Shown here: one piece after another, positions 29,443 to 49,495 of the stretch
Layout: each line of letters begins with the position of its first letter
Numbering within the stretch: position 1 is the first letter of the stretch
DNA from: an uncultured Lachnospiraceae bacterium
GTDB lineage: Bacteria; Bacillota; Clostridia; Lachnospirales; Lachnospiraceae
NCBI GenBank assembly: GCA_900317555.1
Contig: ONHF01000003.1
Location: 1-64,000, forward strand
Length of the DNA stretch: 64,000 nucleotides
Direction: 5' to 3'
The notes under the pieces: generated by a model
Database searches by the model: none
What the model was told of the DNA's origin: nothing
What the model saw: the letters and a program-made list of their open reading frames with translations, nothing else
Position numbers and translations under genes: made by a program

Positions 29443-30882
29443 TCAGTACGCGTTTTTATTGATAAAACCTTTGAAAATAGTAAGGAACAGAATCTTGAAA
29501 TCAAGCCCGAGACTCCAGTTCTCGATATAGAAGATGTCGTACTCAATCCGCTTGCGGATCGATGTATCTCCTCTGTACCCGTTGACCTGTGCCCAGCCGG
29601 TGATTCCGGGGCGCACCTGATGCTTGACCATGTATCTTGGAATTTCCTCTTTGAATTTCTCGACAAACTGCGGGCGCTCCGGCCGCGGTCCGACAAGGCT
29701 CATCTTCCCCATCAGCACATTGAAAAACTGCGGCATCTCATCGATGCTGGTCCTGCGCAGGAAGCTGCCGAACTTCGTGACACGGCAGTCTCCGCGCGTC
29801 GTCCAGCCCTTCTTCTCTTCCTCCGGGCTCTGCACACGCATCGTGCGGAATTTATACATCGTAAACGGCTTGGAGTGGAGACCGATTCTGGTCTGCTTGT
29901 AAATGACAGGCCCCTTGCTGCTGCATCTTGTTCCGATCGCCGCGAAAACCATCACCGGGGAAAACAGCACAATGCAGAAAATCGATCCCAGAATATCTAC
30001 AAGGCGCTTGAGCAGCGCGTTCCAGGTATTCGAGAGCGGAACGTAACGGATGTTGATGACCGGCAGTCCCATCAGATCCTCGGTGTACGGCTTGGAAGGA
30101 AAAAGCGAATTATAGTCCGGTATGAATTTGGTGTGGACGCCCGATTTCTCGCACTGATCGACGATGCCCTCGAGCTTTTCATAGTCGGTCAGCGAAAGCG
30201 TGATCGCGATTTCATCGAGTTTGTTTTCCGGGAGAATGTACTGCAGATTGTCGAGTGTGCCGAGGACTCTGACCCCCTTGTAGGTCGTCCCGCGCGGCAC
30301 ATGGTCATCCAGAATGCCATGCACGACATAGCCCCACTGGGCGTTCGCGCTGATTCTGTCGAGATACGCCTCGGCCGCGCGCGAGTATCCGATGAGGAGC
30401 ATGTGCTTGAGATTGTTGCCTCTTCTTCTGATATAATACAGCGTCTTTCTGACCAGATACCGGTACAGAATGGTCAGCGTCATATTGATCAGATAAAACA
30501 GCGCAATGAAGGTACGGGAGAAATTGACGACCCTGCTGTATCTTGTACTCAGCAGGAAGAAAGACACCATGACAATCGCGATGCCGACGGTGTTGGCCTT
30601 GATAATTCCCCAGATTTCCGTGCGTATTCTTGTGGAGCGCTTGGAAGAATAAAGATTATAGACCGAATACAGAACAAGATAGCCGGGGACAATGAAATAG
30701 AGCGCGGAGAAGTAAGTCTGCGCGGGCAGCGCCGTCACGCCGGGTGTCGTGTCCGCCCACGGGGTCATGAACTTGATGGCCCAGGCAAGCATAAAGCTTG
30801 CGGCGACGACAATTCCGTCCAGCACGACGTGCATTCTGTTGAAAAAGATCTGATTGTCCTTGATCATGCCTGATTGTTCCAC
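29443..30882 (-). CDS. Undecaprenyl-phosphate sugar phosphotransferase (WcaJ/CpsE-like)
   Basis: Starts the lipid-linked polysaccharide by moving a sugar 1-phosphate, usually glucose or galactose, from its UDP donor to undecaprenyl phosphate. The 479 residues have four N-terminal membrane helices (about 15-135), a CoA-binding-like middle domain ([18 protein letters not shown]), a fifth hydrophobic helix (about 295-320) and the catalytic bacterial sugar transferase domain ([53 protein letters not shown]). The start is GTG at 30882; an in-frame ATG at 30867 is an alternative, and neither has a strong ribosome site. Last gene of the polysaccharide operon. Confidence 0.92.
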
Positions 30883-30928
30883 TGCCGGCAGCGCCTGCAG
30901 ATTCCTTCCGGTTTAAAATAAGCGGCGC

Positions 30929-32014
30929 TCAGCCTTTCAGGCGCCTTGCGCAGTTCATCCAGAGCTGGCCCTGAATGTGCAGATAATTCGGCAGATTTGA
31001 AAATGCAAACGGCACCTTTCCGCCAAGGTACAGCGGCAGAATCTGATCCAGCTCTTCACTTCCCTCGATTGCCGCTTCTTCGCAGATGCTGTCCTTGCGG
31101 TACGGAAGACCTGCCGAAAGAAAAAGATCCCGTTCCTTCGCCATTTCCTTCAGATATTTTCCGCGGCGCAGCCCCTGCATGTATGCCTCTCCGAGCCCCT
31201 TCCTCTGAAAATACACCTGCTTGATCAGCCTGCCGAGTCCGATGAGCGGCGCATTCAGCGCGTATTGAAAAGCGGGCATGTTTTTATACAGAAGATACGC
31301 ATTATTGCCGGACGCCATCGACTCCTTGAACGGGTTGTGCACCGAACCGGAGGAGGCACTGCCCGCGTGATAGACAATAGCCTTCGGCGCGTACAGATTT
31401 CTGTAACCGTAAATAGCGGCGCGGTAGCCGATGTCCACATCCTCGAGATAACAATAATGGCGCTCATCGAACAGACCAATGCGGTCAAAAACCGACATGC
31501 GGTAAATTGCGGCGCCCGCGCAGGCGGAAAAGATTTCACCCGCTGTATGATAGCAGCCCCTGCTCTTTGCCTTGCCTCTCGCAAATGCCCAGCCGAGCGC
31601 GCAGTACAGATCTCCCGCGTCGTCGATCACTTCGGGGTCCTTCATAGACAGCATTTTCGCCTGCGCGCTGAACGCCCGCTGGTTCTGCACAATCGCGGTA
31701 TACAGTTCCTCTACGAAGCGCGGATCAGCCTTCGTGTCGTTGTTAAGAAGAATCACATACGGCGTTTTCGTCAGATGCAGCCCGCAGTTCACCGCGTGGC
31801 AGAAACCGGTATTAGCTTCCAGACGGTAAAGCAGCACCTGCGGATACTTCTCCCTGACTCTCTCGCAGCTTCCGTCCGAGGAATGATTGTCCACGACAAT
31901 GATCTCCGGCACAAAAGATCCCGCGAGCAGAGAATCTATACAGTCTTCAATATATTGCAGCCCGTTGTAATTCGGTATCACAACTGTGATGAGGCCCGTT
32001 TTCGATATTCCCAT
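30929..32014 (-). CDS. Glycosyltransferase family 2 (WbbL-like)
   Basis: Cytoplasmic GT-A transferase, 361 residues. The GT2 domain starts ITVVIPNYNGLQYIEDCIDSL, split here as VVIPNYNG; VDNHSSDGS, ANTGFCHAVNCGL, and the metal-binding LLNNDTK follow. The block GLFDERHYCYLEDVDIGYRA and VYHAGSASSG resembles rhamnosyltransferases of the WbbL group. The C-terminal 130 residues are helical. Its start lies one base after the stop of the upstream GT2 gene. Rhamnose as donor sugar fits the rfbBAC genes in the operon but is inferred. Confidence 0.88.
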   Translation of the reverse strand: MGISKTGLITVVIPNYNGLQYIEDCIDSLLAGSFVPEIIVVDNHSSDGSCERVREKYPQVLLYRLEANTGFCHAVNCGLHLTKTPYVILLNNDTKADPRFVEELYTAIVQNQRAFSAQAKMLSMKDPEVIDDAGDLYCALGWAFARGKAKSRGCYHTAGEIFSACAGAAIYRMSVFDRIGLFDERHYCYLEDVDIGYRAAIYGYRNLYAPKAIVYHAGSASSGSVHNPFKESMASGNNAYLLYKNMPAFQYALNAPLIGLGRLIKQVYFQRKGLGEAYMQGLRRGKYLKEMAKERDLFLSAGLPYRKDSICEEAAIEGSEELDQILPLYLGGKVPFAFSNLPNYLHIQGQLWMNCARRLKG

Positions 32015-32015
32015 T

Positions 32016-33362
32016 TTACTCCATCTTCCGCGTCATGGAGGGATCAAAGACCACCAGATACCCCTTATTCCTTGCCTGCCGGCAGAATTCCAGCGACTGC
32101 AGGGTCAGTACTCTCCTGTCTCCCTTTTTCATGATATGCGATTCATATTCCGAATTGAAAACGGTCTGGTAGAGAGGGCGCAGTTCCTCCCGGATCTGCA
32201 TGCAGCGCACATCCACAGCTGCCGCGTCCTGCACCGAGTCCGCACGGTGAGCGGGGCCGCTCTCCATCACATGCATGCCGGCAAAACAAACCGTGCCGTC
32301 CTCCTGCATCATGCCGCCGATGATGATGTTTTTCCGGTTTAACACCTTGCCGCCGACAACGCCCACATCCGGCCGCGCGGTGAAGATATCCGGATGATAG
32401 GTCACGCAGTAAAAGCCCCTGTGCCTTCCCTCCGTGACATCCGCAGTGATGCCACAGGAGTGCAGGTAGCTCTCCAGCGCGCGTTTGCCGGCTTCATAAG
32501 CATAGTTCTTGCTGTCCGGGTTCCCCGCTGTCGATCCCCGGTGCATGCGCCAGTGGTAGAGCACCTTCGGCACATGACAGACACAGGACCAGGGCGCGCG
32601 CAGAATCAGGTCGTAATCCTGCGCGCCGTCATATTCGCTGCGAAGCCGCAGCGCAAGGAACAGTTCCCGCTTCATCACAAACAGATGGCAGATATAGTTG
32701 TTTGTCAGCAGATAGTCCGCGTTGAAGTCCGGCTTGTTATTCGGTTCGAAGAAATGCCGCGCCGTTTCATCGCATTTGTCTTCATCGGTATAAACGATCT
32801 CCGGCTGCCGCCGCATCAGCACTTTCGTCACTTCACAGCACGCATCCGGCGTTAGAAGGTCATCGTAGTCAAGAAGCGCGATATAATCTCCGGCCGCATG
32901 CCCGGCTGCCGCGTTCGTGTTACGCGATATACCGCCGTTGCGCGGGAGGCGGTAATAATGAATGCGTGCATCGCCCAGGGAGGCCGCGGTCTTTTCAGCC
33001 ATAGTCGCGTAACCGGTTTCCCCGGAGGAGCTGCCGTCCGGATCGCTGCCGTCCGCCAGAATCACTTCGAAATTGCCGAATGTCTGCCCGAGCACCGAAG
33101 AAAGCATCTCTCGCAGAAATGTTTCGTCCGGATTGTAGAGCGGAACGAGGAAGCTGATAAGAGGCAGATGGATATTCGCGTCTTCGAGCGCCGCGCGGTA
33201 CGCGGAACGCTGCTTCTCCAAATCGGCAAGAGCCGGCGCCTCATAGGAATATGAAGTGCCGGTTCTTTCCCGCAGCCGTTCTCTTGCCGCGTAAAATGTG
33301 TCCGCGAGGCCGTTGCGCCCCGCGTATCGTATTGTTTTCCGGATATCGTCTAGAAAAGACAT
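32016..33362 (-). CDS. Glycosyltransferase family 2 with C-terminal extension
   Basis: 448 residues. After a helical N terminus (1-65) the GT2 domain runs about 66-290: ISFLVPLYNPDETFLREML, DGSDPDGSS, NGGISRNTNAA, and ALLDYDDLL at the DxD position, then SEYDGAQDYDLILRA and YHWRMHRGSTA. Residues 330-448 look like the incomplete second half of another GT2 (VGVVGGKVLNRKNIIIGG, MMQEDGTVCFAGM), matching part of the double-domain protein encoded upstream in the operon. Donor and acceptor unknown. Stop and next start are one base apart. Confidence 0.86.
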   Translation of the reverse strand: MSFLDDIRKTIRYAGRNGLADTFYAARERLRERTGTSYSYEAPALADLEKQRSAYRAALEDANIHLPLISFLVPLYNPDETFLREMLSSVLGQTFGNFEVILADGSDPDGSSSGETGYATMAEKTAASLGDARIHYYRLPRNGGISRNTNAAAGHAAGDYIALLDYDDLLTPDACCEVTKVLMRRQPEIVYTDEDKCDETARHFFEPNNKPDFNADYLLTNNYICHLFVMKRELFLALRLRSEYDGAQDYDLILRAPWSCVCHVPKVLYHWRMHRGSTAGNPDSKNYAYEAGKRALESYLHSCGITADVTEGRHRGFYCVTYHPDIFTARPDVGVVGGKVLNRKNIIIGGMMQEDGTVCFAGMHVMESGPAHRADSVQDAAAVDVRCMQIREELRPLYQTVFNSEYESHIMKKGDRRVLTLQSLEFCRQARNKGYLVVFDPSMTRKME

Positions 33363-33376
33363 AAGCCGCGTTACCC

Positions 33377-35104
33377 TTAAAGGAGCGCTTTTACCGCATC
33401 CGTAAGCTCTTCGTTTTTCTTCGCCGCATCTTCAAGGCCGGTTCCCTTCACGCCCATGTAGAACTTGATCTTGGGTTCCGTGCCCGAAGGTCTTGCGCAG
33501 CACCAGGCATCCTTGTCCAGCTGGAAGTAAAGAACATTGGACTTCGGCAGTCCCGTCGTTCCTTCTGCACCGGTCGCAGGGTCCACAGTCTTTCCGGTCT
33601 CATAGTCGCGGAACTGCACAACCTTCCAGTCCGCGAACTGCTTCGGCGGATTCGCGCGGAGCTTGTCCATGAGAGCCGCGATCTGTTTCGCGCCGTCCAT
33701 GCCGGGCATCGTGATCGCAAGCTGCGATTCCCTGTAATAACCGTACTCATCATAAATGCGGAGCATCTGATCACAGAGCGTCAGTCCCTGCTTCTTATAG
33801 AAAGCAGCCGCCTCACACAGCATCATGACCGCTGCCGGCGCGTCCTTATCGCGTGCGTGCGTTCCGGGCAGGCACCCGTAGGATTCCTCCAGACCGAAGA
33901 CATAGTTGTACGAATGCTGCTCTTCGAAGAGCCGGATCTGCTCGCCGATATATTTGAAACCGGTCAGAACTTCCACATAGTGCAGGCCGTATTTCTCCGC
34001 GACCGCCTTCGCGAGGTTTGTCGTTACGATCGTCGTCACGAACGCGGGATTCTCCGGCATGGTTCCGGTCTTTGTTCTCTCGCGCAGAATATACTCTCCG
34101 ATCAGCATGCCGGACATATTACCGGTGAAGGCCATATATTCGCCGGTCTTTGTGTCCTTCGCGTAAATGCCGAGACGGTCCGCGTCCGGATCGGTCGCGA
34201 GCACGATGTCCGCGTCCTTTTCCTTCGCAAGCGCAAGCGCAAGCTTGAATGCCTTGGGATCTTCGGGGTTCGGATATTCGAGCGTTGTGAAATCCGGGTC
34301 AGGGTCTCTCTGCTCCGGCACGACATAGACATGCTTGAAGCCGAGCTCGGAAAGGACTCTGGTTACCGGCACAAGGCCCGCGCCGTGGAACGGCGTGTAA
34401 ACGATCCGGATATCGTCCGCCATCTCACGGATGACATCGGGATGGATAATCTGCTTCTTGAGCGCTTCCATGTAGGCGTCATCGACTTCACTCCCGAAAT
34501 AAACAAGAAGTCCCTGCGCCTTCGCAGCCTCCTCCTTTATGGTCCGGACATCATTGTAGTCGGTCACCGCGTTGACATCCGCGATTATGCCGGTATCATG
34601 CGGCGGCGTTACCTGTGCGCCGTCTTCCCAGTAAACCTTGTAGCCGTTATATGCGGGCGGATTGTGGGAAGCCGTAATCTCGACGCCTGCCTGGCACCCA
34701 AAATAGCGAAGAGCAAACGACTCCTCCGGGACAGGGCGCAGTGTATCGGAAAGATAGGCCTTGATGCCGTTTGCCGCAAGACAAAGCGCTGTCTCCTTCG
34801 CGAACTCCGGTGACATCCTTCTCGAGTCATAAGAGATCGCGACCCCCTTCTGCGGATCGCCGTTCTTTAAAATGTAGTTTGCAAGTCCCTGCGTCGCCTT
34901 GCGGACCGTATATATGTTCATACGGTTCGTGCCGGCGCCGATCACGCCGCGAAGGCCGCCCGTGCCGAAAGCGAGATCCTTGTAGAAGCGGTCCTCGATT
35001 TCCTTTTCGTCCCCTTGCACAGACCGCAGTTCCTCTTTGGTCTTCTCGTCGAAATACGGGTCCGTGAGCCAGTAATTCAGCTGCTGCTGCACTCTTTCAA
35101 GCAT
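33377..35104 (-). CDS. Phosphoglucomutase / phosphomannomutase (alpha-D-phosphohexomutase family)
   Basis: Interconverts hexose 6- and 1-phosphates. The 575 residues show all four family domains: GTGGLRGVIGAG near the start, the phosphoserine loop TASHNPPAYNGYK (Ser146), the metal loop ATDPDADRLG, the sugar-specificity loop GLEESYG, and the phosphate-binding CARPSGTEPKIK. Length fits the PgcA-type phosphoglucomutases of Firmicutes. Lying inside the polysaccharide operon, it would supply glucose 1-phosphate for RfbA and for the UDP-sugar used by the initiating transferase. It is flanked by GT2 genes within 22 bases on each side. Confidence 0.93.
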   Translation of the reverse strand: MLERVQQQLNYWLTDPYFDEKTKEELRSVQGDEKEIEDRFYKDLAFGTGGLRGVIGAGTNRMNIYTVRKATQGLANYILKNGDPQKGVAISYDSRRMSPEFAKETALCLAANGIKAYLSDTLRPVPEESFALRYFGCQAGVEITASHNPPAYNGYKVYWEDGAQVTPPHDTGIIADVNAVTDYNDVRTIKEEAAKAQGLLVYFGSEVDDAYMEALKKQIIHPDVIREMADDIRIVYTPFHGAGLVPVTRVLSELGFKHVYVVPEQRDPDPDFTTLEYPNPEDPKAFKLALALAKEKDADIVLATDPDADRLGIYAKDTKTGEYMAFTGNMSGMLIGEYILRERTKTGTMPENPAFVTTIVTTNLAKAVAEKYGLHYVEVLTGFKYIGEQIRLFEEQHSYNYVFGLEESYGCLPGTHARDKDAPAAVMMLCEAAAFYKKQGLTLCDQMLRIYDEYGYYRESQLAITMPGMDGAKQIAALMDKLRANPPKQFADWKVVQFRDYETGKTVDPATGAEGTTGLPKSNVLYFQLDKDAWCCARPSGTEPKIKFYMGVKGTGLEDAAKKNEELTDAVKALL

Positions 35105-35125
35105 GTGTCATACCTCCTGATACAA

Positions 35126-37153
35126 TTAATCCTGTACTTTCAGTGAAAAATCACTTCTGTCCAGTGTGAAATTCGGATTGTAGTAAGGATCGCCCCTCTC
35201 AATAACCTCTTTCCACCTTGTGCGGAAGTGCTCCGCTTCCCTGTCGTAGCGTTTCGCGTTTTCGGAATGCGGATCCTCCACATCCGAGCCGCGCGAGAGC
35301 GACTCATAATGGTAGAGCTCCGCGAACGGCGTAAATACATTCAGATAATTCTTCTGCCTGCAGCGCAGACAAAAGTCAACATCATTGAGAGAAACTTCAA
35401 ATGTCTCGTCCAGGCCGCCGAGCTCGTCATAGATGCGCTTCTTAACCATCAGGCACGCGCCGGTCACCGCGCTCATATTCTGCGCGTAGCAAAGACGCCC
35501 CATGTATCCGAGGTTCTCGCGCCGCTGCCGGTAATGCACGTGTCCCGCCGTCCTGTGCGCGCCAAGGCCAATCACGATCCCCGCGTGCTGGATCGTCTTA
35601 TCCGGGTAATAGAGCTTGCCGCCGACACAGGCGACATCATCTCTTTGCGCGTACATCAGAAGCTCTTCGATCCAGTTAAGTGAAATCACTTCCGTATCAT
35701 TGTTCAGAAGCAGGATATATTCCCCGCGCGCCTTTGAGACACCGAAGTTGTTGATGCGCGAATAGTTGAAGGCTTCGCCTTCCGCGTATTTATATTCTAC
35801 TACAGATACGCGGTCTTTGTATGGCCCGCTCGTCACTTCTTTGTAGTAACGCTTTGTCTCTTCCTCCGTGCTGCCGTTTTCGACGATAATGATTTCATAG
35901 TTCTCGTAGGTCGATTTTTCAAAGATCGAGGTCAGGCAGCGCTTGAGATCCTGCGCGTGGTCCCTGTTCGCAATCACGATGCTGACCAGCGGATCTCCCT
36001 GAATCTCATAGGTGATTTTGAAAATCGTCTCAAACGCGCGCGTCGAGGTGATCTTGAAATTCGCAAAGCCGTGGCGGCGCAGATGATCCGCGACAGCGCC
36101 TTTGGCGGCGTCGATCGCGTATGTTTTGGCGGCAATATTGCCCGCGGTGGAGCCCGCGTGACTTCTCCAATAATACAGGAGTTTCGGCACATGTACAATC
36201 TTGCGCGCCTTGTCCGTCAGCCGCAGAATCATGTCGTGGTCCTGCGAGCCGTCAAACTCGCTGCGATAGAGCTCTTCTCCCTCAAGGAGCTTCCGGTCAA
36301 AACAGGACAGATGACAGATATAATTGTTCGCCCGGAGATTATCGATCGCGTAATCCGGCTTGAAATGAATCGTCACAAAGTGATTCAGGTTCGATTCCCG
36401 GAACGTCGTCTCGTCGCAGTACAGATAATCGGCGCCCTGTTCGTTAATGACCTTCGCGTACTCGTACAGAACTGACGGGTGCAGGTAGTCGTCATGATCA
36501 AACGGCGCGATATATTCTCCTTTTGCAAGCTCAAGACACTGGTTTGTGTTGTACGAGATGCCGCCGTTTTTATCCAGCTTCTTATATGCAATTCTCTTCG
36601 CGAGGTTTTCGCTGCGGCTTCTGTATTCGGCGACGACCTTTCCGACATAGGCATGGGCATCGTCCGAGCCGTCCGCGAGGCAGAGCTGCCAGTTGTCATA
36701 GGTCTGGTTTAAAACCGAATCCAGCATATCCCGCAGGTACTCTTCGGGCGTATTGTACAGCGGCACAAGAATGCTGAACAGAACGCGGTTCTGAAAAGCC
36801 GCCGATTCCTTTTCCTGTCTGGCCCGCTCTTCTTTGTCCGGAAAGCTTGCGGTTCCGTATCCCTTGACGGCCTGTTTTTCGCGGATCTTGTACTGCACCT
36901 TTTTGATGACGCCTCTTGCGTCGCCCTGATTGCGGATGCGGTCCGCCTGGCGCCGCACAAAGTGATATACCTCTCTTGCGGGCTTCGACACCTTCCAGAG
37001 TCCGTTGTTATGGATGCGGTCCAGCTTGAACTGCAGATCATCCACCTGATCCTCGAGCGACGCCACCCGTTCGAGAAGAAACGCGGCCTTCGCCCGTTCC
37101 TTCTCGTAGGCTTCTTTATAATCTTTTATCTCGTCTTTGTTCTGTGTATCCAT
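35126..37153 (-). CDS. Double-domain glycosyltransferase (two GT2 modules)
   Basis: 675 residues. A coiled-coil start (about 5-50) is followed by two GT2 modules: one at about 124-345 (FSILVPLYNTPEEYLRDML, KNGGISYNTNQCL, APFDHDDYL) and one at about 390-620 (VSIVIANRDHAQDLKRCL, VENGSTEEE, LLLNNDTEV, LNDVDFCLR, YHYESLSRG). Both keep an acidic metal-binding motif, so both may be active, giving a two-linkage polymerase. Similar tandem proteins occur in rhamnan and teichoic-type clusters. It lies 4 bases after the next GT2 gene, implying co-translation. Confidence 0.88.
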   Translation of the reverse strand: MDTQNKDEIKDYKEAYEKERAKAAFLLERVASLEDQVDDLQFKLDRIHNNGLWKVSKPAREVYHFVRRQADRIRNQGDARGVIKKVQYKIREKQAVKGYGTASFPDKEERARQEKESAAFQNRVLFSILVPLYNTPEEYLRDMLDSVLNQTYDNWQLCLADGSDDAHAYVGKVVAEYRSRSENLAKRIAYKKLDKNGGISYNTNQCLELAKGEYIAPFDHDDYLHPSVLYEYAKVINEQGADYLYCDETTFRESNLNHFVTIHFKPDYAIDNLRANNYICHLSCFDRKLLEGEELYRSEFDGSQDHDMILRLTDKARKIVHVPKLLYYWRSHAGSTAGNIAAKTYAIDAAKGAVADHLRRHGFANFKITSTRAFETIFKITYEIQGDPLVSIVIANRDHAQDLKRCLTSIFEKSTYENYEIIIVENGSTEEETKRYYKEVTSGPYKDRVSVVEYKYAEGEAFNYSRINNFGVSKARGEYILLLNNDTEVISLNWIEELLMYAQRDDVACVGGKLYYPDKTIQHAGIVIGLGAHRTAGHVHYRQRRENLGYMGRLCYAQNMSAVTGACLMVKKRIYDELGGLDETFEVSLNDVDFCLRCRQKNYLNVFTPFAELYHYESLSRGSDVEDPHSENAKRYDREAEHFRTRWKEVIERGDPYYNPNFTLDRSDFSLKVQD

Positions 37154-37157
37154 AGCC

Positions 37158-39245: not shown

Positions 39246-39261
39246 TTACACTCCTTTTGTT

Positions 39262-41412
39262 TTACCGCATGGCGTCCGCCATCGTGGAAGGCAGGCCGCA
39301 CATCTGCAGTGTGAAATGAACAAAACGCGTCTTCCCGGAGCTCTCTCTTCTGTGGAATTTCTTCAGATCCCACTCCATGTTCGGGTCGTCGGTCGTAAAA
39401 ACAAGCGCCGGTTTTTCACTCACCGCGTTGCTCTTTAAGTATCTTTGGAACGCGCCGGTATCCGCAAGCACCGTTCCGTCTTCTTCTGTTAAGGCTGTGT
39501 TCCGAAGAAGCACGACGCAGGGACACAGCGCGGGGTCCACGCGGAGGCACCGCACATTGCCTTCCACCGGGACCGTAAAGCGGATCATCCCCTCTGCTTC
39601 ATACTGCTCGGAGACAAAGTATGCCTCGTCTTCATTATACCCTTTTCCGGTATCGTAATACACACGGACTGCCGTCAAAGACCCGGCCTGTTCCTTCTTC
39701 TCTTCCGATGCCTGTGCTTTCTGCTCTTTTGTCTGCAGCTCCGCGGGAATAATGACCTGCATACCGGTCTGCGCGCGGAAATCACCGAGCGCCTGCATGC
39801 CGCCCGTCACTTCGATCTGGAACCGGCGTTCCGCTTCCATAAGGCGCTCCGCTTCTGCCTTTGTCTTACCGCAGATCTGTTCGGCAAAGTCTTCGCCAAG
39901 CAGGGCGTCCAGAGCCCTCGCGCGCCGTTTGTTTTCCAGTCTGTAAAGAAGAAGCGCCCGGTACAGAAGATCATTAACAGGAATGCAGCGGTCCGTTTCC
40001 CACTCGTAGTCCACCGCGGTCCATGCGTCTGCGTCAACCAGAAGATTAGCAAAGGTCATGTCCTGATCTGCCGCGGGAAGGTTTTCTCTGTAGGACAGAC
40101 GCTCCCTGTATTCTTCGATCAGCCGCAGGAAGCCGTCCTTATCGTGCCTAAAAAGGCACGCGTCCAGCAGTGCTTCCAGCGGTTCTCCCTGAACATAGTC
40201 AAAACATACGCTGCCGTCATCCATCAGCCTGCATGGCGCGATCCGGATGGAGCGGGAAACTGTCTCCGCGCGTGCAGCCTCGGCATTCCCTTCCTCCGGC
40301 TCAAAGCGCGCCCGCAGCTTCTCATACGACGCCGCCATTCTTCTGACATGCTCCTGTGCCTCTTTCGTCAGAGGATATTTGAGAATCCGGCGCGGATTTT
40401 CCGCAAGCTCTGTCCGTATCCGGTAACGCGGCGCCCGGTCATTGGAAAACTTCGCGTAGGAAACTGGAAGAGGGTCTCCTACGATAACCTCAAAAGAATT
40501 GGCAAAGACCGGATACAGGCCATCCCGTGTAATTCCCTCATAGGCTTCATGCTCATCAAAAAGAAGAAGCCGGTCCATGTCGAAATTGCGGATGTTGTCG
40601 GTCAGCTCGCTCCCGTCCGGAAGGCGGGTGTCGGAATAGATGCTGCTCATGAACTTGTAGTCCGGATACGGATAATAGAACGAGTATTCATTCATGCCGC
40701 AGCCGCGCAGGATTTTTTCAAGCGCGGGTCTTGAAAACGTCGTCGCGGGGTGCTCTCCCGGATAGTTCTCGATCCCGTCAAAATAACGCGCGGAATGATC
40801 CTCTTTACAGCCCGCAAAATATTTCAGTCCCAGACGGTTCTCGATCGCGATCACAATGCGGCCGGCCGGCGTTTCCCGAAGGTGTGCGTAAATGCGGCGG
40901 AGCTCCTCGCGGAACGGGTCCTCCGCCTTGATATAACTGCCGGCGTACTCGAATACGCCGATCAGAAAGATATAGTCATAATCGCAGGGAAGGTGCGGTT
41001 CGATATCTTCGAAATTACCGACCATGATCTTTACGTTCCCGCAGTCTTTGTGGCGGTACGCGTTGATCATGGAGCGTTTCCTTGAAAGCTCCACACAGGT
41101 CACCTGCGCGCACTTCTTCGCGAGAACACCGGTGATGGCACCCGGTCCCGCGCCAATCTCCAGAACCTTTTCGTTTCCGGTAAACGGAATCCAATCCACG
41201 ATATTACCGCGGATCGAGGAAAGGTGATACAACACCGGCCAGCTCTTCTTCTCCCGGATGATTTTCTCGAAGCACTCTGCGGGATTGTTCTGCACGATCT
41301 CTAAAATTTCGTCCTCGACCGCGCCGTCGCAGTAATAATCCTCGCCGGGATAATAAGTGTAATCGAGCGTCACCTGTCCGATTTTTTCAGTTCTGCTGCC
41401 TGCTTCCTGCAT
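39262..41412 (-). CDS. SAM methyltransferase / kinase-like fusion, possible polysaccharide chain-capping enzyme
   Basis: About 716 residues. Residues 60-250 are a class I methyltransferase (VLEIGAGPGAITG near 85-97, acidic loop CVELSRKR). Residues 310-495 look like a small-molecule kinase fold: KYSN-like YAKFSNDRAP, a Lys in RRILKYPL (347), then DQDMTFANLLV (Asp453, Asn458, spaced as in APH kinases) and VDYEW (Asp470, the DFG-type position). A helical stretch (about 497-565) precedes a C-terminal beta domain (580-718). Numbers count from an in-frame TTG at 41418; I prefer ATG 41412, 10 bases after AGGTG. The gene overlaps the Wzt-like ATPase gene. Domain order and size recall E. coli O9a WbdD. 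The methyltransferase is secure; the kinase is inference. Confidence 0.8.
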   Translation of the reverse strand: MQEAGSRTEKIGQVTLDYTYYPGEDYYCDGAVEDEILEIVQNNPAECFEKIIREKKSWPVLYHLSSIRGNIVDWIPFTGNEKVLEIGAGPGAITGVLAKKCAQVTCVELSRKRSMINAYRHKDCGNVKIMVGNFEDIEPHLPCDYDYIFLIGVFEYAGSYIKAEDPFREELRRIYAHLRETPAGRIVIAIENRLGLKYFAGCKEDHSARYFDGIENYPGEHPATTFSRPALEKILRGCGMNEYSFYYPYPDYKFMSSIYSDTRLPDGSELTDNIRNFDMDRLLLFDEHEAYEGITRDGLYPVFANSFEVIVGDPLPVSYAKFSNDRAPRYRIRTELAENPRRILKYPLTKEAQEHVRRMAASYEKLRARFEPEEGNAEAARAETVSRSIRIAPCRLMDDGSVCFDYVQGEPLEALLDACLFRHDKDGFLRLIEEYRERLSYRENLPAADQDMTFANLLVDADAWTAVDYEWETDRCIPVNDLLYRALLLYRLENKRRARALDALLGEDFAEQICGKTKAEAERLMEAERRFQIEVTGGMQALGDFRAQTGMQVIIPAELQTKEQKAQASEEKKEQAGSLTAVRVYYDTGKGYNEDEAYFVSEQYEAEGMIRFTVPVEGNVRCLRVDPALCPCVVLLRNTALTEEDGTVLADTGAFQRYLKSNAVSEKPALVFTTDDPNMEWDLKKFHRRESSGKTRFVHFTLQMCGLPSTMADAMR

Positions 41413-42661
41413 CTTCAATGGTCACCTTTGAATTCATGTCGTAGTAGCCGACCGTGTTCTTTCCCGATACCACGGTCATGTTCATGACATCATAAAGCCT
41501 GTGATAAACCGTGAAATTCTCGCCTTCATAACCGGTCACGCCGAACGAAATCAGGTACTCCCCTCCCTGCAGATCGACTTTCTGCCGGAAGGAAATAATT
41601 TTGACGTCGCCCTTGGAAACCGGCTCCAGAAACGCCTTCTCGAACATGGTGTTGGTTCCGGTGATCTCGACGCCGTATTTGTTCTTGATTGTGAAAGCGA
41701 AGATCGGCGCCTTTACGTCCTCGTTGAAACGCACCTTCATCCGGAATGTACACCCGGTGCCCTTCATGATCGTCGAGTTCGGGTTCCCCTGATTGTCCAG
41801 AATCGTGTAATCGACAATCGCTGCCTTCAGGGACCCGTACTCAAGCGTTTCCTTGTTGACCGGTGCCTTGTTCACGCGCTCCGGTACCTTCGCGGTTCCC
41901 TTCTTCGCGTCCGGGTCGTACTGGCCGACCAGCACCTGCTTGTAGATGTCGATCATTTCCTTCGGATCGCCTTCTCCGAGTTTGTGTCCCTGATTTAAAA
42001 GGACTACGCGGTCGCAGTATTTGCTGATGCTCGAGAGGTCGTGGGAGACGAACAGGACTGTTTTGCCCTGCTCTTTGAACTCTTCAAATTTGTGAAAACA
42101 TTTCGCCTGAAAAAAGACATCCCCGACCGCAAGTGCTTCATCCACGATCAGAATTTCCGGATCGATGTTGATCGCGACAGCGAACGCGAGGCGCATGAAC
42201 ATACCGGAGGAATACATTTTGACCGGCTGATAGATGTACTCGCCGATGTCCGCGAACGAAAGAATCGAATCCATCCGGGCTTCAATTTCCTTCTCGGTAA
42301 AGCCGATCATCGTACCATTGAGATAGATGTTCTCAATGCCGTTGTACTCCATGTTGAAGCCGGCGCCCAGTTCCAGAAGCGCAGATATGCGCCCGTTCAC
42401 CTTGACCTCTCCGGAAGTCGGCGTCAGGACGCCCGTGATGATCTTCAGGATTGTCGATTTTCCGGAGCCGTTCGTCCCGATGATGCCGACGGTCTCGCCT
42501 TTGTAGATCGTCATGTCGACATCGTCGAGCGCCATATGTTCGGTGTAGCGCGGCTTCCTCGAAAGGCCGAGCGCGTCGATGACGCGGTCTCTGTTATGCG
42601 CGTACAGTTTATATTTCTTTTTCAGATGCGATACCTGTATCGCGATTTTCCGATCCTGCAT
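41387..42661 (-). CDS. Polysaccharide ABC transporter ATP-binding protein with Wzt-type C-terminal domain
   Basis: Powers export of an undecaprenyl-linked glycan. The 424 residues have the ATPase domain at about 5-245: Walker A GTNGSGKST (62-70), the teichoic/O-antigen exporter motif LLELGAGFNMEYNG (about 95-108), signature YSSGMFMRLAFA (150-161), Walker B ILIVDEAL (Asp174, Glu175), switch His207. Residues 275-395 form a separate beta-rich domain (YGSLKAAIVDYTILDNQG, GVEITGTNT) like the Wzt C-terminal carbohydrate-recognition domain; plain TagH-type ATPases lack this. It overlaps the downstream methyltransferase gene and lies 4 bases from the permease gene. Confidence 0.93.
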   Translation of the reverse strand: MQDRKIAIQVSHLKKKYKLYAHNRDRVIDALGLSRKPRYTEHMALDDVDMTIYKGETVGIIGTNGSGKSTILKIITGVLTPTSGEVKVNGRISALLELGAGFNMEYNGIENIYLNGTMIGFTEKEIEARMDSILSFADIGEYIYQPVKMYSSGMFMRLAFAVAINIDPEILIVDEALAVGDVFFQAKCFHKFEEFKEQGKTVLFVSHDLSSISKYCDRVVLLNQGHKLGEGDPKEMIDIYKQVLVGQYDPDAKKGTAKVPERVNKAPVNKETLEYGSLKAAIVDYTILDNQGNPNSTIMKGTGCTFRMKVRFNEDVKAPIFAFTIKNKYGVEITGTNTMFEKAFLEPVSKGDVKIISFRQKVDLQGGEYLISFGVTGYEGENFTVYHRLYDVMNMTVVSGKNTVGYYDMNSKVTIEDAGSRQQN

Positions 42662-42665
42662 AGAT

Positions 42666-43664
42666 TTACATTACATCCGCGAACTGCGGCTTGAGTTTCT
42701 TGAAGATCAGCGACGAGATTACAAAAAGCAGCGATGTCGCGATCCAGAAATAGGTGCTGGAATAAAAGTGCGTGAAGAACCACTCGTGGCCGTACACCGA
42801 CATGCGGTAGCCTTCCACGATATAGGTCATCGGATTCAGCTTGATGATCCACTTCACTTTGTCGGGAACCATGTTGATGTTCCAGAGAATGGGTGTTGCC
42901 CACATGCCGACCTGCATGACGATTCCAACGATCTGCTGCAGATCCCGGAAAAACACCACGATCGAGCATGTCGCATAGGACAGACCCAGAATCAGAATGT
43001 ACTCGCAGAACGAATAATACAGCAGCTGCAGCCAGTATACACTCGGCGGATAACCGTAGAACCAGGCGATCAGAAGCAGCACCGCTGTGAAGCCGACATG
43101 CACGAACATTGCCGCCGTGATCTTGATGATCGGCAGCACGCTGATTTTGAACAGCACTTTTTTGACGAGGTAATTGTATTCGAGAAGCGAGGTCATCCCG
43201 CCCATCACCGCGTCGGAGAAGAAGAACCACGGCACAAGGCCGGCTGTTAAAAACAGAACATACGGCACCTCGATCCCCGCGGAGGTCCTCTGCGGTCCGG
43301 AGCCGAAAATCCTGTCAAAGACGACCCAGTACATGATGACCGTCACGACCGGCGGCACCATCGCCCAGATTGTGCCAAGATACGAACCCGCGTAACGTTT
43401 CCTGAAGTCATTGCGCGAAAGGCGCCAGATCAGCCGGCGGTTCTGGTAAAGCTCCTGCGGCAGCTGCGTGATTTTGTCGTACAGAGCCGTAAACAGCACC
43501 GTACCAAGGCCGAGGAGCAGACTTCCCGAAATCTTCTTGAGGCGCGCCGTATCCGGATCTTCCAGCGGATTGTCGTGGAGAATGAGGATGCAGAACAGCA
43601 CCGCGGCGGCCAGCCAGACGAGCAGAAGGATTATTCTTTTCCTGTTTCGTAATTTATTATCCAT
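42666..43664 (-). CDS. Polysaccharide ABC-2 type export permease (Wzm/TagG-like)
   Basis: Channel subunit of the glycan exporter. The 332 residues contain a typical ABC-2 core: cytoplasmic NDFRKRYAGSYLGTIWAMVPP (in two pieces: NDFRKRYAGSYLG, TIWAMVPP), then six membrane helices and GMWATPILWNINMVP, LNPMTYIVEGYR. Two extra hydrophobic segments precede the core (about 10-32 and 48-66), making it roughly 70 residues longer than minimal TagG/Wzm proteins. I chose ATG 43664, the only ATG after the rfbC stop that leaves the full first helix; its ribosome site is weak. Confidence 0.9.
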   Translation of the reverse strand: MDNKLRNRKRIILLLVWLAAAVLFCILILHDNPLEDPDTARLKKISGSLLLGLGTVLFTALYDKITQLPQELYQNRRLIWRLSRNDFRKRYAGSYLGTIWAMVPPVVTVIMYWVVFDRIFGSGPQRTSAGIEVPYVLFLTAGLVPWFFFSDAVMGGMTSLLEYNYLVKKVLFKISVLPIIKITAAMFVHVGFTAVLLLIAWFYGYPPSVYWLQLLYYSFCEYILILGLSYATCSIVVFFRDLQQIVGIVMQVGMWATPILWNINMVPDKVKWIIKLNPMTYIVEGYRMSVYGHEWFFTHFYSSTYFWIATSLLFVISSLIFKKLKPQFADVM

Positions 43665-43687
43665 ATGTGCGTCCGCGTCCCGCAGGA

Positions 43688-44305
43688 TCACAGATTTCTT
43701 TCCTTCCTGTACTGCGCGATGCCGGCCCACTTCTGGTCCTTGCCGGAAAGCGTAAGAGGCGTTCCGTCTTCGAGCGCGTAGCCTGCGGCGCAAGGGGTTC
43801 CGTCATAGGATCCTGTAACCTGCGGCCATTTGATGCCGATGCCGGGATCGTTCCACGCGATGCCGGCTTCATCATTCGGGTGCCAGAAATCATCCACCTT
43901 ATAGCAGAACTCCGCCTCGTCCGACAAAACAAGAAAGCCGTGGGCGAAATTCTTCGGGATAAAGAACTGTTTCTTATTCTCCGCGCTGAGGACAACGCCG
44001 AACCACTTGCCGAACGTTTCCGAGCCGGGGCGCAGATCCACCGCCACATCAAAGACAGTTCCGTTTACAACGCGGACAAGCTTGGACTGGGCGTACTGAA
44101 TCTGGAAATGAAGACCGCGGAGTACTCCCTTTTTGGAAGACGACTGGTTGTCCTGCACGAACTCGCAGTCGATGCCGGCTTCCACAAAATCCTTTTTCTG
44201 ATACGTCTCCATAAAATATCCGCGGTCATCTCCATGAACAGAAGGCGTAATTACCTTGAGTCCCTTGATGCCGCCGCAGTCATTTTCCACACTGATCTGT
44301 CCCAT
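43688..44305 (-). CDS. rfbC: dTDP-4-dehydrorhamnose 3,5-epimerase
   Basis: Third enzyme of dTDP-L-rhamnose synthesis. The 205-residue RmlC cupin shows the N-terminal block GLKVITPSVHGDDRGYFMETY, the catalytic His in VLRGLHFQ (His66), FDVAVDLRPGS, and FIPKNFAHGF with the metal-free cupin residues. It lies 103 bases after rfbA, the longest internal gap of the operon, with nothing recognisable in it. rfbD (the final reductase) is not in the window. Confidence 0.95.
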   Translation of the reverse strand: MGQISVENDCGGIKGLKVITPSVHGDDRGYFMETYQKKDFVEAGIDCEFVQDNQSSSKKGVLRGLHFQIQYAQSKLVRVVNGTVFDVAVDLRPGSETFGKWFGVVLSAENKKQFFIPKNFAHGFLVLSDEAEFCYKVDDFWHPNDEAGIAWNDPGIGIKWPQVTGSYDGTPCAAGYALEDGTPLTLSGKDQKWAGIAQYRKERNL

Positions 44306-44408
44306 AATATACCGTTACTCCTTCAATCTTTCCTAAAGTCCGTTTCCAGCGCGCGTCTGTCCTGCCCGCCGTGTCAGCTGCGGCAAAGTCCGCGCCGGCA
44401 GGCCCGCT

Positions 44409-45287
44409 TCAAAGCCCGTTCGCGATGTCGCACAGATACCTGCCGTAATTTGTCTTCATGAGCGGCTGCGCCAGCTTCAGCAGCTGCTCTCTGCCTATGA
44501 AGCCGCGCTTGTACGCGATCTCCTCGATGCAGGAAATATACAGTCCCTGGCGTTTCTGGAAGGCCGCGACAAAGTCCGCCGCGTCCAGAAGCTGGTCATG
44601 CGTACCGGTATCCAGCCACGCGAAGCCTCTTCCAAGCGTCTCCACGCGCAGCGTCCCGCGCCTTAAATACTCGTTGTTGATGCTCGTGATCTCAATTTCG
44701 CCGCGGGCCGAAGGCTTCACGTTCTTTGCGATTTCCACGACATCATTGTCATAGAAGTACAGCCCCGGGACCGCGTAATTGGACTTCGGATGCTCGGGCT
44801 TTTCCTCGATCGAAACCGCCTTGCCGTCCTTGTCAAATTCGACGACGCCATACGCTTTCGGATCGCGGACATAGTAGCCGAAGATCGTCGCTCCGCCGTC
44901 CCTCGATACGCGCTCATTTGTATGCAGAAGGACTCTCGAAAAGCTCTGCCCGTAGAAAATGTTGTCTCCAAGAACCAGCGCGCACGCGTCATCTCCGATG
45001 AAGTCCGCGCCGATGATGAACGCCTCTGCAAGGCCGTTGGGCTTTTCCTGCACTTTGTAGGAAAAAGACATGCCAAGCTGAGAGCCGTCACCTAGAAGAT
45101 CTTCGAAAACCGGCAGATCTCTCGGCGTCGAAATAATCAGCACTTCACGGATTCCCGCGAGCATCAGCGTGGAAAGCGGATAATAGATCATCGGCTTGTC
45201 ATACACCGGCATGATCTGCTTGGAGATTGCCTTCGTCAGAGGATATAGTCTTGTGCCGGAACCGCCGGCAAGAATTATGCCTTTCAT
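44409..45287 (-). CDS. rfbA: Glucose-1-phosphate thymidylyltransferase
   Basis: Makes dTDP-glucose from glucose 1-phosphate and dTTP. The 292 residues begin [17 protein letters not shown], the nucleotide-binding loop, and contain [54 protein letters not shown] and [15 protein letters not shown], all RmlA signatures. Length is standard. It lies 3 bases after rfbB. Confidence 0.97.
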
Positions 45288-45290
45288 GGA

Positions 45291-46388
45291 TTACCCGATC
45301 ACCTTTCTGTCGCCGTACATCTTTTCATAATACTGCTGATAATTTCCGGACGTTATGTGCTCCATCCAGTCCATGTGGTCAAAATACCACTTGATCGTCA
45401 TCCGGATGCCTTCCCGGAACATGGTCTCCGGCAGCCATCCCAGCTCCTTATGAATCTTGTCCGGCGCGATCGCGTATCTTCTGTCGTGGCCTTTTCTGTC
45501 TTCAACATACTCGATGAGATCTTCGGAAACATTCGCCTTCCTCGGATCGTCATCGGACAGCTCCTCGCGCAGCACTTCGATGATGGTTTTTACGATCTCA
45601 ATATTCTGCTTCTCGTTGTGTCCGCCGACATTGTAGGTCTCGCCGCTGATGCCCTTCTCGGATACCAGATCAATTGCCTTGCAGTGGTCCTCGACATACA
45701 GCCAGTCGCGGACGTTCCTGCCGTCGCCGTAAACCGGAAGCTTCCTGCCCGCCAGCGCGTTGTTAATCATCAGAGGAATCAGCTTTTCCGGGAACTGGTA
45801 AGGGCCGTAATTGTTCGAGCAGTTCGTGATATTCATCGGGAAGCCGTAGGTATCATGATACGCCTTGACCAGCATGTCCGAGGACGCCTTGGAAGCGCTG
45901 TAGGGACTGTGCGGCTGATAGGGCGTCGTCTCATAGAAGTACGCGTCCGGATCCTCCGGCAGAGAACCGTAAACCTCGTCTGTCGAAACATGGCAGAACT
46001 TCTTGCCCTCGCGGAACGAGCCGTCCGGCAGCTCCCAGGCTTCCTTCGCGCAGTTGAGCATGTTCGCGGTGCCGAGGACATTCGTCTTTACAAAAAGCTC
46101 CGGCTCCCTGATCGAACGATCGACATGGGACTCGGCCGCGAAGTGGATGACTCTGTCAACGTCATAGTCATGAAAAACAGCCCGGATCGCATCCTTGTCA
46201 CAGATGTCCGCCTTCACAAAGTGGTAATTCGGAAGGTTCTCCACGTCTTTCAGGTTCTCCAGATTACCGGCATACGTCAGCTTGTCGACGTTGATGATTT
46301 CAATCGAGTCCCCGTATTTGCCCAGCATATAGTGAATAAAGTTGGAGCCGATGAAACCGGCGCCGCCTGTAACCAGATATGTTTTCAT
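45291..46388 (-). CDS. rfbB: dTDP-glucose 4,6-dehydratase
   Basis: Converts dTDP-glucose to dTDP-4-keto-6-deoxyglucose. The 365-residue extended SDR has the NAD motif TGGAGFIG (7-14), STDEVYG (catalytic Asp137, Glu138) and YSASK (Tyr163, Lys167), plus NCSNNYGPYQFPEKLIP. ATG 46388 is preceded by AGGAGG at 11 bases. It is the first gene of the polysaccharide operon. A TATACT box about 40-50 bases upstream may be part of its promoter, but no good -35 is visible. Confidence 0.97.
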   Translation of the reverse strand: MKTYLVTGGAGFIGSNFIHYMLGKYGDSIEIINVDKLTYAGNLENLKDVENLPNYHFVKADICDKDAIRAVFHDYDVDRVIHFAAESHVDRSIREPELFVKTNVLGTANMLNCAKEAWELPDGSFREGKKFCHVSTDEVYGSLPEDPDAYFYETTPYQPHSPYSASKASSDMLVKAYHDTYGFPMNITNCSNNYGPYQFPEKLIPLMINNALAGRKLPVYGDGRNVRDWLYVEDHCKAIDLVSEKGISGETYNVGGHNEKQNIEIVKTIIEVLREELSDDDPRKANVSEDLIEYVEDRKGHDRRYAIAPDKIHKELGWLPETMFREGIRMTIKWYFDHMDWMEHITSGNYQQYYEKMYGDRKVIG

Positions 46389-49400: not shown

Positions 49401-49495
49401 GTATCATCCAGAAAGCCGGTATCCTTTAAAGAAGCTGTATCATCCAGAAAGGTGCCGGTTTCGTCTGCATCCCGCCTGTTCTGTTCTGTCGCCAT
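46460..49495 (-). CDS. Membrane-anchored GH25 lysozyme with Big2 domains
   Basis: Predicted muramidase held at the membrane. 1011 residues: acidic cytoplasmic tail (1-100), one membrane helix (about 109-131), coiled coil (155-185), a SpaA/Cna-like region (about 190-300), Ser/Gly repeats (445-545), two Big2-type domains (about 555-735), a choline-binding-like repeat (GWQTLDGLTYFFDKTGKPV), and the GH25 domain 815-1011. GH25 catalytic residues are kept: Asp819 in GIDVS, Asp911 and Glu913 in FIDVE. ATG 49495 follows GGGGGG; a longer in-frame extension is rejected because a consensus promoter lies inside it. Divergent from the SGNH-like gene. Confidence 0.9.
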   Translation of the reverse strand: MATEQNRRDADETGTFLDDTASLKDTGFLDDTDVLSSDTFEEESFLDDDVPEGAREFEGGEDDYAEDAAAYAYMTQPRAGLTENAPAKEQNPLPEGPEEKEEGRRRGSLLNWAIGLTAVAIAGVSVYLGIQISGTRRIAAAAASYASIGQSLEGISVIGGDKFEQVAKARQQKDEQKALEAQQQKEREELLSKAGTIPVSFTLSTIQSDIKVKIRRDDNGSLISGVPFKISVADEAGKKTEYEDDDQDGIIYKTGIKNGKYTVTLEQLLDTEKVIADTDPLPEDFKLYSKFKIPEEPQTIAVTDKIAYKKVDVADEVKSESQVNVAKEDTARNDTVVESKIQDTVEWVESTKTEITDDDGTGVVTAEDGYQEVQKKDVPDPSLKAFTGKISGNFRRLSKELPAVGTSEAAGTGSAGAAGTADNNTQSTVSGSESGSAGSGTSGSSENTAAGSSDNGEGMSSAGTSGSEGSAPAGSSEGGSTGSGTAGSSEGGSTGSGTSGSSESGGAGSTAGTQTGQTGSTEASSAASTKDTSGDGKDKPKKDYKLTIPSEITIAVGDKTEITAAVNEPYATQFAWSRPDASIAQISSEKGKRITVTGIKSGTAEIVVTASLADPDADPKTLTGTIKVTVTEKKTKASVQLSPSSITLAAGRTQQLSVTVRGEDGKTSNDAGLVLFQSADEKIASVSESGVITAKAKGTTTVTAELRADANVRADVQVKVTEGAVLPLKDKDGNQLYVKDGDSYREATTADYSKYDVFYRKGKVAKRYRYTGWQTLDGLTYFFDKTGKPVTGTQIIQGVSYTFNAEGVLNGSDSRLGIDVSTWNGQIDWSQVARSGVSYAIIRAGYRGSSTGALIRDSAFSRNASGATAAGIRVGIYIFSQATNEAEAVEEASMAVQLASGYHVSLPIFIDVEGSGGRGDRVSVAQRTANIAAFCRTVENSGYKAGVYANKSWFTHNINVGALTGYHIWLAQYAAKPTYTASRYDIWQYSSSGRISGIKGNVDMNMFYRAY
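47960..48220 (-). repeat. Tandem repeats coding the Ser/Gly linker of the GH25 protein
   Basis: A 29-base stretch occurs identically at 48009-48037 and 48048-48076 (period 39 bases, 13 codons, encoding EGGSTGSGT-type units), with more diverged copies on both sides. Confidence 0.8.

Follow-up and report, generated by a model that had tools for sequence, protein, structure and literature searches.

A methyltransferase–kinase protein beside a Wzt_C-type exporter suggests chain-end capping of a rhamnose-type polysaccharide in Lachnospiraceae

Introduction

Is the polysaccharide encoded by a Lachnospiraceae export operon capped at its chain end before it leaves the cytoplasm, and which proteins would write and read such a cap? 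The question is raised by a 64,000-nucleotide stretch of an uncultured Lachnospiraceae bacterium (GCA_900317555.1, contig ONHF01000003.1, positions 1 to 64,000; hereafter the window). An initial annotation, made from the letters alone, had proposed a WbdD/Wzt-style module in which the gene for an exporter ATPase with a C-terminal Wzt-type domain overlaps that of a ~716-residue protein with methyltransferase and kinase-like domains. Here we examine this protein, for which we coined the name MTK (methyltransferase–kinase protein), together with its neighbours and relatives.

Results

Organization of the operon

The operon is encoded on the minus strand, where its genes follow one another as rmlB-rmlA-rmlC-wzm-wzt-MTK-GT2-(coiled coil/GT2/GT2)-phosphohexomutase-GT2-GT2-priming enzyme (Table 1). 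The LCP gene, which had been noted in the neighbourhood, is in the same run; it follows directly after the priming gene, just past position 29443. A complete WcaJ gene followed by an LCP gene (>60 bits) was found in five of seven loci. This gene position suggests that the LCP enzyme may attach the product to the wall.

Table 1. Genes of the operon, with positions in the window
Feature	Position	Strand	Evidence or remark
rmlB, dTDP-glucose 4,6-dehydratase	45291..46388	-	TIGR01181 above cut-off
rmlA, glucose-1-phosphate thymidylyltransferase	44409..45287	-	TIGR01207 above cut-off
rmlC, dTDP-4-dehydrorhamnose 3,5-epimerase	43688..44305	-	TIGR01221 above cut-off
Wzm-type ABC-2 permease	42666..43793	-	PF01061 E 4.6e-17; ORF taken from first TTG, start putative
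Wzt-type ATPase with C-terminal Wzt_C, predicted cap reader	41387..42661	-	PF14524 E 3.3e-42; pocket N337, R388
MTK: methyltransferase ~1-305, kinase ~306-560, CBM-like beta-sandwich ~583-718 (model)	39262..41418	-	likely start ATG 41412
GT2 glycosyltransferase, 695 aa	37158..39245	-	PF00535
Coiled coil (~residues 13-47) and two GT2 domains, 675 aa	35126..37153	-	PF00535 twice
Phosphohexomutase-like protein	33377..35104	-	TIGR03990 149 bits, below cut-off of 439
GT2 glycosyltransferase, 448 aa	32016..33362	-	PF00535
GT2 glycosyltransferase, 361 aa	30929..32014	-	PF00535
WcaJ-type undecaprenyl-phosphate sugar-phosphate transferase (priming enzyme)	29443..30882	-	TIGR03023 above cut-off
LCP-family enzyme, candidate for wall attachment	27828..29315	-	PF03816 E 1.2e-32

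MTK combines a methyltransferase, a kinase and a beta-sandwich

Counted from TTG 41418, MTK has 718 residues; from the in-frame ATG 41412 (residue 3) it has 716, the length first reported. The latter frame shares 26 bp with the end of the wzt ORF (stop codon ending at 41387). Pfam recognized Methyltransf_12 at residues 86–182 and found no family in the kinase part or the C-terminal part when each was searched alone. An AlphaFold2 model built with 75 relatives reached a mean pLDDT of 89.7 and showed a kinase fold in the kinase-like region; a single-sequence model (pLDDT 34) was set aside. In a Foldseek search of the whole model against the PDB, WbdD accounted for the best four of the 50 matches listed (E 1e-10). 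The rmsd of these alignments was 15.6–18.9, indicating that the MTK domains are arranged otherwise than in WbdD. A Foldseek search against viral proteins returned mainly methyltransferases and was uninformative.

A profile of the kinase part alone found protein kinases in the PDB by sequence (best E 1.7e-4), with kinases making up 59 of the best 60 of 177 matches. Residues K347, D453, N458, D470, E472 and W473, which include the catalytic Lys, Asp, Asn and Asp of the kinase, are identical across all 76 aligned proteins, and all six recur in 38 of 38 rows of a kinase alignment with four separate kinase genes. The MTK alignment comprised 75 ORFs from 80 loci; L032, L073 and L083 (>770 aa) and L052 and L095 (split) were left out. 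The kinase-like part of MTK is real. The initial annotation was right about the methyltransferase and the kinase and missed a third domain (residues ~583–718), which is a beta-sandwich in the predicted model, appears CBM-like and lies in the same chain as the two enzymatic domains. It also missed the place of the coiled coil, which MTK itself lacks, its C-terminus being modelled as this beta-sandwich; the coil sits on a neighbouring glycosyltransferase.

The closest described architecture

Direct sequence homology between MTK and WbdD was dropped, as WbdD was absent from the 21 single-protein matches and from the best 60 of 118 profile matches; the fold match was kept. WbdD of Escherichia coli O9a shares with MTK a methyltransferase followed by a eukaryote-like kinase, and its chains are read by the carbohydrate-binding module of Wzt; as described in PMC3482155, however, WbdD has no CBM, includes a long coiled coil and acts on polymannose. 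Its C-terminal coiled-coil region, which serves as a ruler and recruits the polymerase, is lacking in MTK.

Compared by published description and through a proxy, the closest described architecture to MTK is instead the Klebsiella pneumoniae O7 terminator ORF6, in which a methyltransferase, an APH-like kinase, an Ig-like CBM, a coiled coil and two GT2 domains follow one another (PMC11231755). The WbdD/Wzt-style reading of the initial annotation stands for the domain order and the adjoining Wzt_C gene, with WbdD itself retained as a fold match. According to the same source, the O7 enzyme phosphorylates and methylates the glycan end in vitro, a reaction abolished by D441A, and its product ends in a rhamnose that carries methyl-phosphate on O3. 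Orthologues are named there from alpha- and gammaproteobacteria and cyanobacteria, and the main text contains none of the terms 'Firmicutes', 'Clostridi' and 'Gram-positive'.

The proxy, P0001, is encoded on a plasmid of Pseudomonas asturiensis next to a Wzt_C ATPase and comprises a methyltransferase, a kinase, a CBM-like part (weak profile match with the third domain of MTK, i-E 2.5e-4) and two GT2 domains. P0001 and MTK share 28% identity over 631 aa. Residues Y28, Y66, G91, G93, E112 and Y158, as listed for the O7 enzyme in PMC11231755, recur in P0001 with unchanged letters and numbering. In the alignments P0001 has Arg in place of the beta-3 Lys, and its coil score was non-significant (25 of 200 shuffles scored equally high). 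Gram-negative relatives were found in 2 of 72,556 plasmid records; a repeat search with the Pseudomonas protein yielded nothing beyond the query and the Citrobacter record already found.

The O7 and window systems share the domain order, a rhamnose-containing glycan and ABC export. They differ in that ORF6 is one polypeptide, whereas its parts are spread over two window genes with another glycosyltransferase gene between them, and in that the O7 product is an O-antigen on LPS, whereas the window has an LCP neighbour. The coiled coil lies inside the O7 terminator; in the window it is found on the product of 35126–37153. This coil is short (~35 residues), and its score was matched by none of 200 shuffles. 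The product is 39% identical to P0001 over 552 aa, and in the Lachnospiraceae relative L073 the counterparts of MTK and of this protein are fused in one ORF, coiled coil included. By sequence, the coiled coil-GT2-GT2 protein likely corresponds to the C-terminal half of O7-type proteins.

MTK and the Wzt_C exporter occur together

The Wzt-type domain claimed for the exporter ATPase was confirmed: the protein has an ABC_tran domain at residues 45–177 and Wzt_C at residues 273–409, above cut-off, and its gene adjoins that of its ABC-2 permease partner. Of 80 related loci, 77 contain both MTK and a wzt(Wzt_C) gene; the other three begin where their contig does, at MTK or shortly before it, so the pairing is not due to chance. 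Among the 77 loci holding that flank, a Wzt_C ATPase is near MTK in all 77 and within 300 bp in 72. MTK profile matches, some covering only part of the protein, were found in 100 of 200 sampled Lachnospiraceae genera; Wzt_C was detected in 97 of 100 Lachnospiraceae genomes with such a match versus 24 of the 100 that had none (Fisher p 2e-29). Among the genomes with a match, Wzt_C went undetected in 3 of the 100 from Lachnospiraceae and in 5 of the 15 from the phylum-wide set; one of these is G258, which carries both the methyltransferase and the kinase gene. In G281, G278, G305 and G258, methyltransferase and kinase are encoded by two neighbouring ORFs. Relatives containing LicD or cytidylyltransferase domains also exist, which indicates that the MTK scaffold has other uses.

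An arginine in the predicted cap pocket

The Wzt of Aquifex aeolicus (8dku) reads 3-O-methyl caps through a C-terminal cap-binding domain with Trp362 (PMC9445017). In our mapping, N337 of the window Wzt corresponds to Aquifex Asn313, whereas Arg388 takes the position of Trp362. R388 is present in 78 of 78 Lachnospiraceae Wzt proteins, and all 17 Wzt proteins surveyed in genomes that hold the MTK module have Arg at this position. It is also present in 2r5o, which is the Wzt of E. coli O9a according to the review PMC6286764; O9a chains carry a methyl-phosphate cap. The correlation between Arg388 and the module was rejected as independent evidence, since the tree gave only two independent contrasts.

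The Wzt_C survey had 75 rows, representing 73 distinct places, of which 60 were taken; residue calls for low-scoring rows are alignment-dependent. Thirteen rows were dropped as weak or partial (G386, G218, G454, G150:C109, G279, G120, G103, G192, G006, G001:C140, G009, G010 and G020:C8). Neighbourhoods covered 35 of the 40 non-Arg places, and in 3 of these 35 no Wzt was recognised by the script. Wzt_C, compared here by its pocket residues, is predicted to bind the capped end, and export may depend on that binding.

Discussion

Based on these data, we propose, with a probability of roughly 0.7, that the operon makes a rhamnose-type chain whose end is phosphorylated and then methylated by MTK, read by Wzt_C, exported and moved to the wall by the LCP enzyme. 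First, a rhamnose-type surface polysaccharide would be built in the cytoplasm on an undecaprenyl carrier, primed by the WcaJ-like enzyme and extended by the GT2 enzymes. MTK would then stop chain growth: its CBM-like domain may hold the chain, its kinase domain would phosphorylate the non-reducing-end sugar, and its methyltransferase domain would subsequently methylate the terminal phosphate. We speculate that the coiled coil on the GT2-GT2 polymerase joins terminator and polymerase and helps to set chain length. Wzt_C would bind the capped end, with Arg388 in the pocket facing the anionic cap, and the bound cap would license export via Wzm/Wzt. Finally, the LCP enzyme would transfer the chain to the wall.

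The view that Clostridia hold no well-described system of this kind was too strong. The S-layer glycan of Clostridioides difficile SLCT-11 (Ox247) is, by its description, a rhamnose-rich, ABC-exported glycan of a Gram-positive member of the Clostridia, with a 2,3-cyclophosphoryl-rhamnose end whose phosphate was proposed by the authors to have an O9a-like termination role (PMC6254364). It differs in that its phosphate is cyclic and the glycan protein-linked; the words 'kinase' and 'methyltransferase' are absent from the main text of that paper. A further Gram-positive precedent is the rhamnan of Geobacillus stearothermophilus, with Wzm/Wzt, a 2-O-methyl cap made by the methyltransferase WsaE, overlapping wzm-wzt-wsaE genes and rml genes in the cluster (PMC2943079). 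There, in contrast, the cap is methyl-only and the methyltransferase is fused to two glycosyltransferase domains, no kinase being mentioned in the part of the source used here; the capped glycan is attached to S-layer protein.

Because the glycan is S-layer-bound in each of the two Gram-positive precedents found, the window product might likewise be an S-layer or other protein-linked glycan instead of an LCP-attached wall polymer, which would leave the capping part unchanged. We consider this unlikely, given the LCP gene that immediately follows the priming gene here and in five of seven loci. It is distinctly unlikely that the kinase domain makes a plain or cyclic phosphate cap read by Wzt_C while the methyltransferase acts on a sugar hydroxyl or another residue. 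The SLCT-11 end group, the separate methyltransferase and kinase genes in four genomes, and the termination of O9a chains by phosphorylation alone (PMC3482155) are all in its favour, but the two activities are closely linked or fused and the product described for the O7 enzyme is a methyl-phosphate. That MTK instead places phosphate and methyl on internal or side-chain sugars, with Wzt_C reading another feature, is improbable: relatives with LicD or cytidylyltransferase domains and genomes lacking a detected Wzt_C would fit, but the enrichment of Wzt_C (97 versus 24 of 100 genomes) and the terminator role of the described relatives of this architecture argue against it.

Returning to the methyl-phosphate cap, a broader proposition, which is a real possibility if one we would bet slightly against, is that many Lachnospiraceae make a methyl-phosphate-capped rhamnan wall polysaccharide using a methyltransferase-kinase-CBM writer, a separate coiled-coil polymerase and a cap-reading exporter. 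One Wzt_C residue might then tell the cap chemistry, with Arg for anionic caps (phosphate, methyl-phosphate, or sulfate where a sulfotransferase-coiled-coil protein replaces the kinase) and Trp or Tyr where the cap is a neutral methyl group; this would offer a one-residue hypothesis for reading cap chemistry from Wzt_C sequences. Overall, the observation made in the initial annotation is confirmed and its interpretation partly supported.

Lachnospiraceae rhamnans include the glucorhamnans of Ruminococcus gnavus, for which immune effects have been reported (review PMC12413058). If our proposal is true, such rhamnans would bear a terminal group that may escape ordinary sugar analysis. A capping strategy best known from Gram-negative O-antigens is apparently common in a Gram-positive family, and export-coupled chain capping would then be a common device of a major gut Gram-positive family and not mainly one of Gram-negative O-antigens.

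Kinase-like and CBM-like parts of MTK

In MTK, the 716–718-residue protein of the operon, Pfam recognised the methyltransferase alone and no other family. The kinase-like part that the initial annotation had placed after it was borne out by structure prediction, structural search and profile comparison. An alignment of the window protein with 75 full-length relatives, drawn from 80 related loci that are nearly all Lachnospiraceae by record titles, showed that K347, H357, D453, F456, N458, D470, Y471, E472, W473 and R487 are identical in 76/76 proteins. The AlphaFold2 model computed from this 76-row alignment has a pLDDT of 89.7 (above 90 for most of the kinase part) and a pTM of 0.77, and its top Foldseek matches in the PDB are four structures of WbdD, the E. 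coli O9a terminator (E 9.8e-11 to 7.5e-10). The rmsd of 15.6–18.9 over 526–584 columns indicates that the parts agree in order and differ in mutual orientation. A kinase-part profile, built from 38 rows and searched against PDB sequences, matched GCN2 (E 1.7e-4), Ser/Thr kinases (6e-4) and JAK1 (1.6e-3); 59 of the 60 matches listed, from 177, are kinases, the remaining one being the artificial ThreeFoil. In the alignments listed, D453 and N458 align with the catalytic-loop Asp and Asn of kinases, and D470 aligns with the Asp of DFG in those extending that far. The third domain (about 583–718) is modelled as a beta-sandwich, which fits expectation for the Ig-like CBM described in the Klebsiella pneumoniae O7 terminator ORF6 (PMC11231755).

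Relationship to the O7-type terminator

ORF6 of O7 also matches MTK by module order. In vitro, it phosphorylates and methylates the terminal rhamnose, and the D441A mutation abolishes activity (PMC11231755). As its proxy in sequence comparison, we used P0001, a 1457-aa protein of a Pseudomonas asturiensis plasmid, in which all six SAM-site residues listed for O7 recur with identical letters and numbers and the catalytic-type Asp is D443, versus D441 in O7. P0001 contains a methyltransferase and two GT2 modules (Pfam), kinase and CBM parts (our own profiles), and a coiled-coil-like stretch recognised by eye, whose score was equalled in 25/200 shuffles. It shares 28% identity with MTK over 631 aa and 39% with the window's coiled coil–GT2–GT2 protein over 552 aa. 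The N-terminal coil of the latter scored above 200/200 shuffles, and 50 of 57 orthologues had a coil score reached by no more than 5/100 shuffles.

A single 1389-aa ORF in a Lachnospiraceae MAG (L073:7939-12105) comprises methyltransferase, kinase, CBM-like part, coiled coil and two GT2, thus uniting counterparts of both window genes, while in four genomes (G281, G278, G305 and G258) two neighbouring ORFs encode methyltransferase and kinase separately. Because the modules are fused and split in different ways, they suggest one common task. Two MTK-like proteins carry additions, a C-terminal LicD domain (L014:1219-3516, genome G001; E 1.4e-32) and a cytidylyltransferase-like domain (L126:181-2574, genome G202; E 3.5e-17), so that a related scaffold may serve other purposes as well. 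On a conjugative plasmid of Citrobacter braakii (L132:8944-10893), rml genes occur together with wzm, wzt and the gene for a 649-aa protein of methyltransferase type, a relative of the P. asturiensis protein; the DFG-type Asp of this 649-aa protein is Glu (by eye), and the plasmid's Wzt has Arg in the pocket.

Operon organisation and co-occurrence with Wzt_C

Features of the operon region
Feature	Position	Strand	Remarks
Whole run	29443-46388	minus	rmlB, rmlA, rmlC, wzm-type permease, wzt-type ATPase, MTK, five genes, WcaJ-type priming enzyme
Large protein	46460-49900	minus	upstream of rmlB; GH25 lysozyme domain, Big_2 domain, choline-binding repeat
Wzt	41387-42661	minus	exporter ATPase with C-terminal Wzt_C domain
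MTK	39262-41418	minus	methyltransferase, kinase, CBM-like domain
Five genes between MTK and priming enzyme			in order: GT2; coiled coil-GT2-GT2; phosphohexomutase-like protein; GT2; GT2
Coiled coil-GT2-GT2	35126-37153	minus	second of the five genes
LCP enzyme	27828-29315		after WcaJ-type priming gene

The Wzt_C domain reported for the exporter ATPase was confirmed (E 3.3e-42), as was the wzt–MTK overlap, which is 26 bp when the ATG at 41412 is taken as the MTK start. The rmlA, rmlB and rmlC genes predict dTDP-rhamnose; rmlD scored over the cut-off in 9/9 relatives tested and was not found over it in the window's genome, an 87% complete draft. In 5/7 loci, an LCP gene (>60 bits) comes after a complete priming gene, and the glycan may be attached to the wall.

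In the window's genus, 13/37 genomes have a strong match to MTK (E 1e-43 or better), and 12 of the 13 have Wzt_C, the exception (G012) being a contig-end fragment; no match of that strength turned up in the 24 genomes from elsewhere in the order. Among 200 Lachnospiraceae genomes, one per genus, the MTK profile (E <= 1e-20) was found in 100, some matching part of the protein only, Wzt_C in 121, and both in 97 (Fisher p 2e-29). Across 398 genomes of the phylum, 15 matched MTK at E <= 1e-10, with Wzt_C in 10/15 versus 33/383 others (p 1.6e-7); G258 is among the five without Wzt_C and has both methyltransferase and kinase parts. Wzt with its C-domain lies on MTK's strand in 77/80 loci and within 300 bp in 72; in L044 and L108, a coiled coil–GT protein lies between them.

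The putative cap pocket of Wzt_C

Using contacts of Aquifex Wzt (PMC9445017) and a PDB alignment, we mapped Asn313 to N337 of the window's Wzt and the methyl-stacking Trp362 to R388; both N337 and R388 are identical in 78/78 Lachnospiraceae Wzt. The nearest solved C-domain, 2r5o (E 4e-12; Aquifex, E 3e-4), also has Arg at this position. It belongs to E. coli O9a Wzt according to a review (PMC6286764), and the O9a chain end is methyl-phosphate (PMC3482155). In the window's genome, a divergent second Wzt_C ATPase (L231:6056-7411, G000:C29; 51.5 bits) has Lys in this column.

We surveyed 60 Wzt_C regions out of 73 places listed, and Arg occupies the R388 column in 20. All 17 regions from genomes flagged for MT-kinase have Arg, most of them adjacent to the MT-kinase, which lies on another contig in G305 and about 4 kb off in G281. 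Arg is also found in G221; a methyltransferase gene there precedes an ORF that matches APH weakly and under the cut-off (E 0.0049) and in which CBM-like and coiled-coil parts were recognised by eye. In the two remaining Arg cases (L194:7121-10681, G237; L195:6057-7250, G184), the protein encoded after the Wzt_C ATPase is sulfotransferase-like, has a coiled coil of heptad repeats and, in G237, is fused to GTs; the Sulfotransfer_3 match lies just under the cut-off, and these proteins are possible sulfate-capping terminators. The 40 non-Arg regions have Trp (19), Tyr (12), Phe (1) or others (8), and a recognisable Wzt was present in 32/35 neighbourhoods. Motif searches, which may miss divergent enzymes, found in the three genes after Wzt in these 32 a methyltransferase motif in 11, a kinase-like motif in one (G082, judged spurious) and a sulfotransferase motif in none. 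Since a tree of 66 C-domains explains Arg by two changes, giving two independent pairs, we advance Arg as a code for cap chemistry as a hypothesis and not as a demonstrated rule.

In the open-licence literature searched, we found no report of a methyltransferase–kinase terminator in Bacillota. The Gram-positive Geobacillus has a 2-O-methyl cap, a precedent for the capping principle (PMC2943079), and a C. difficile S-layer glycan, the second such precedent, ends in a cyclic phospho-rhamnose, its termination having been proposed by analogy to O9a (PMC6254364).
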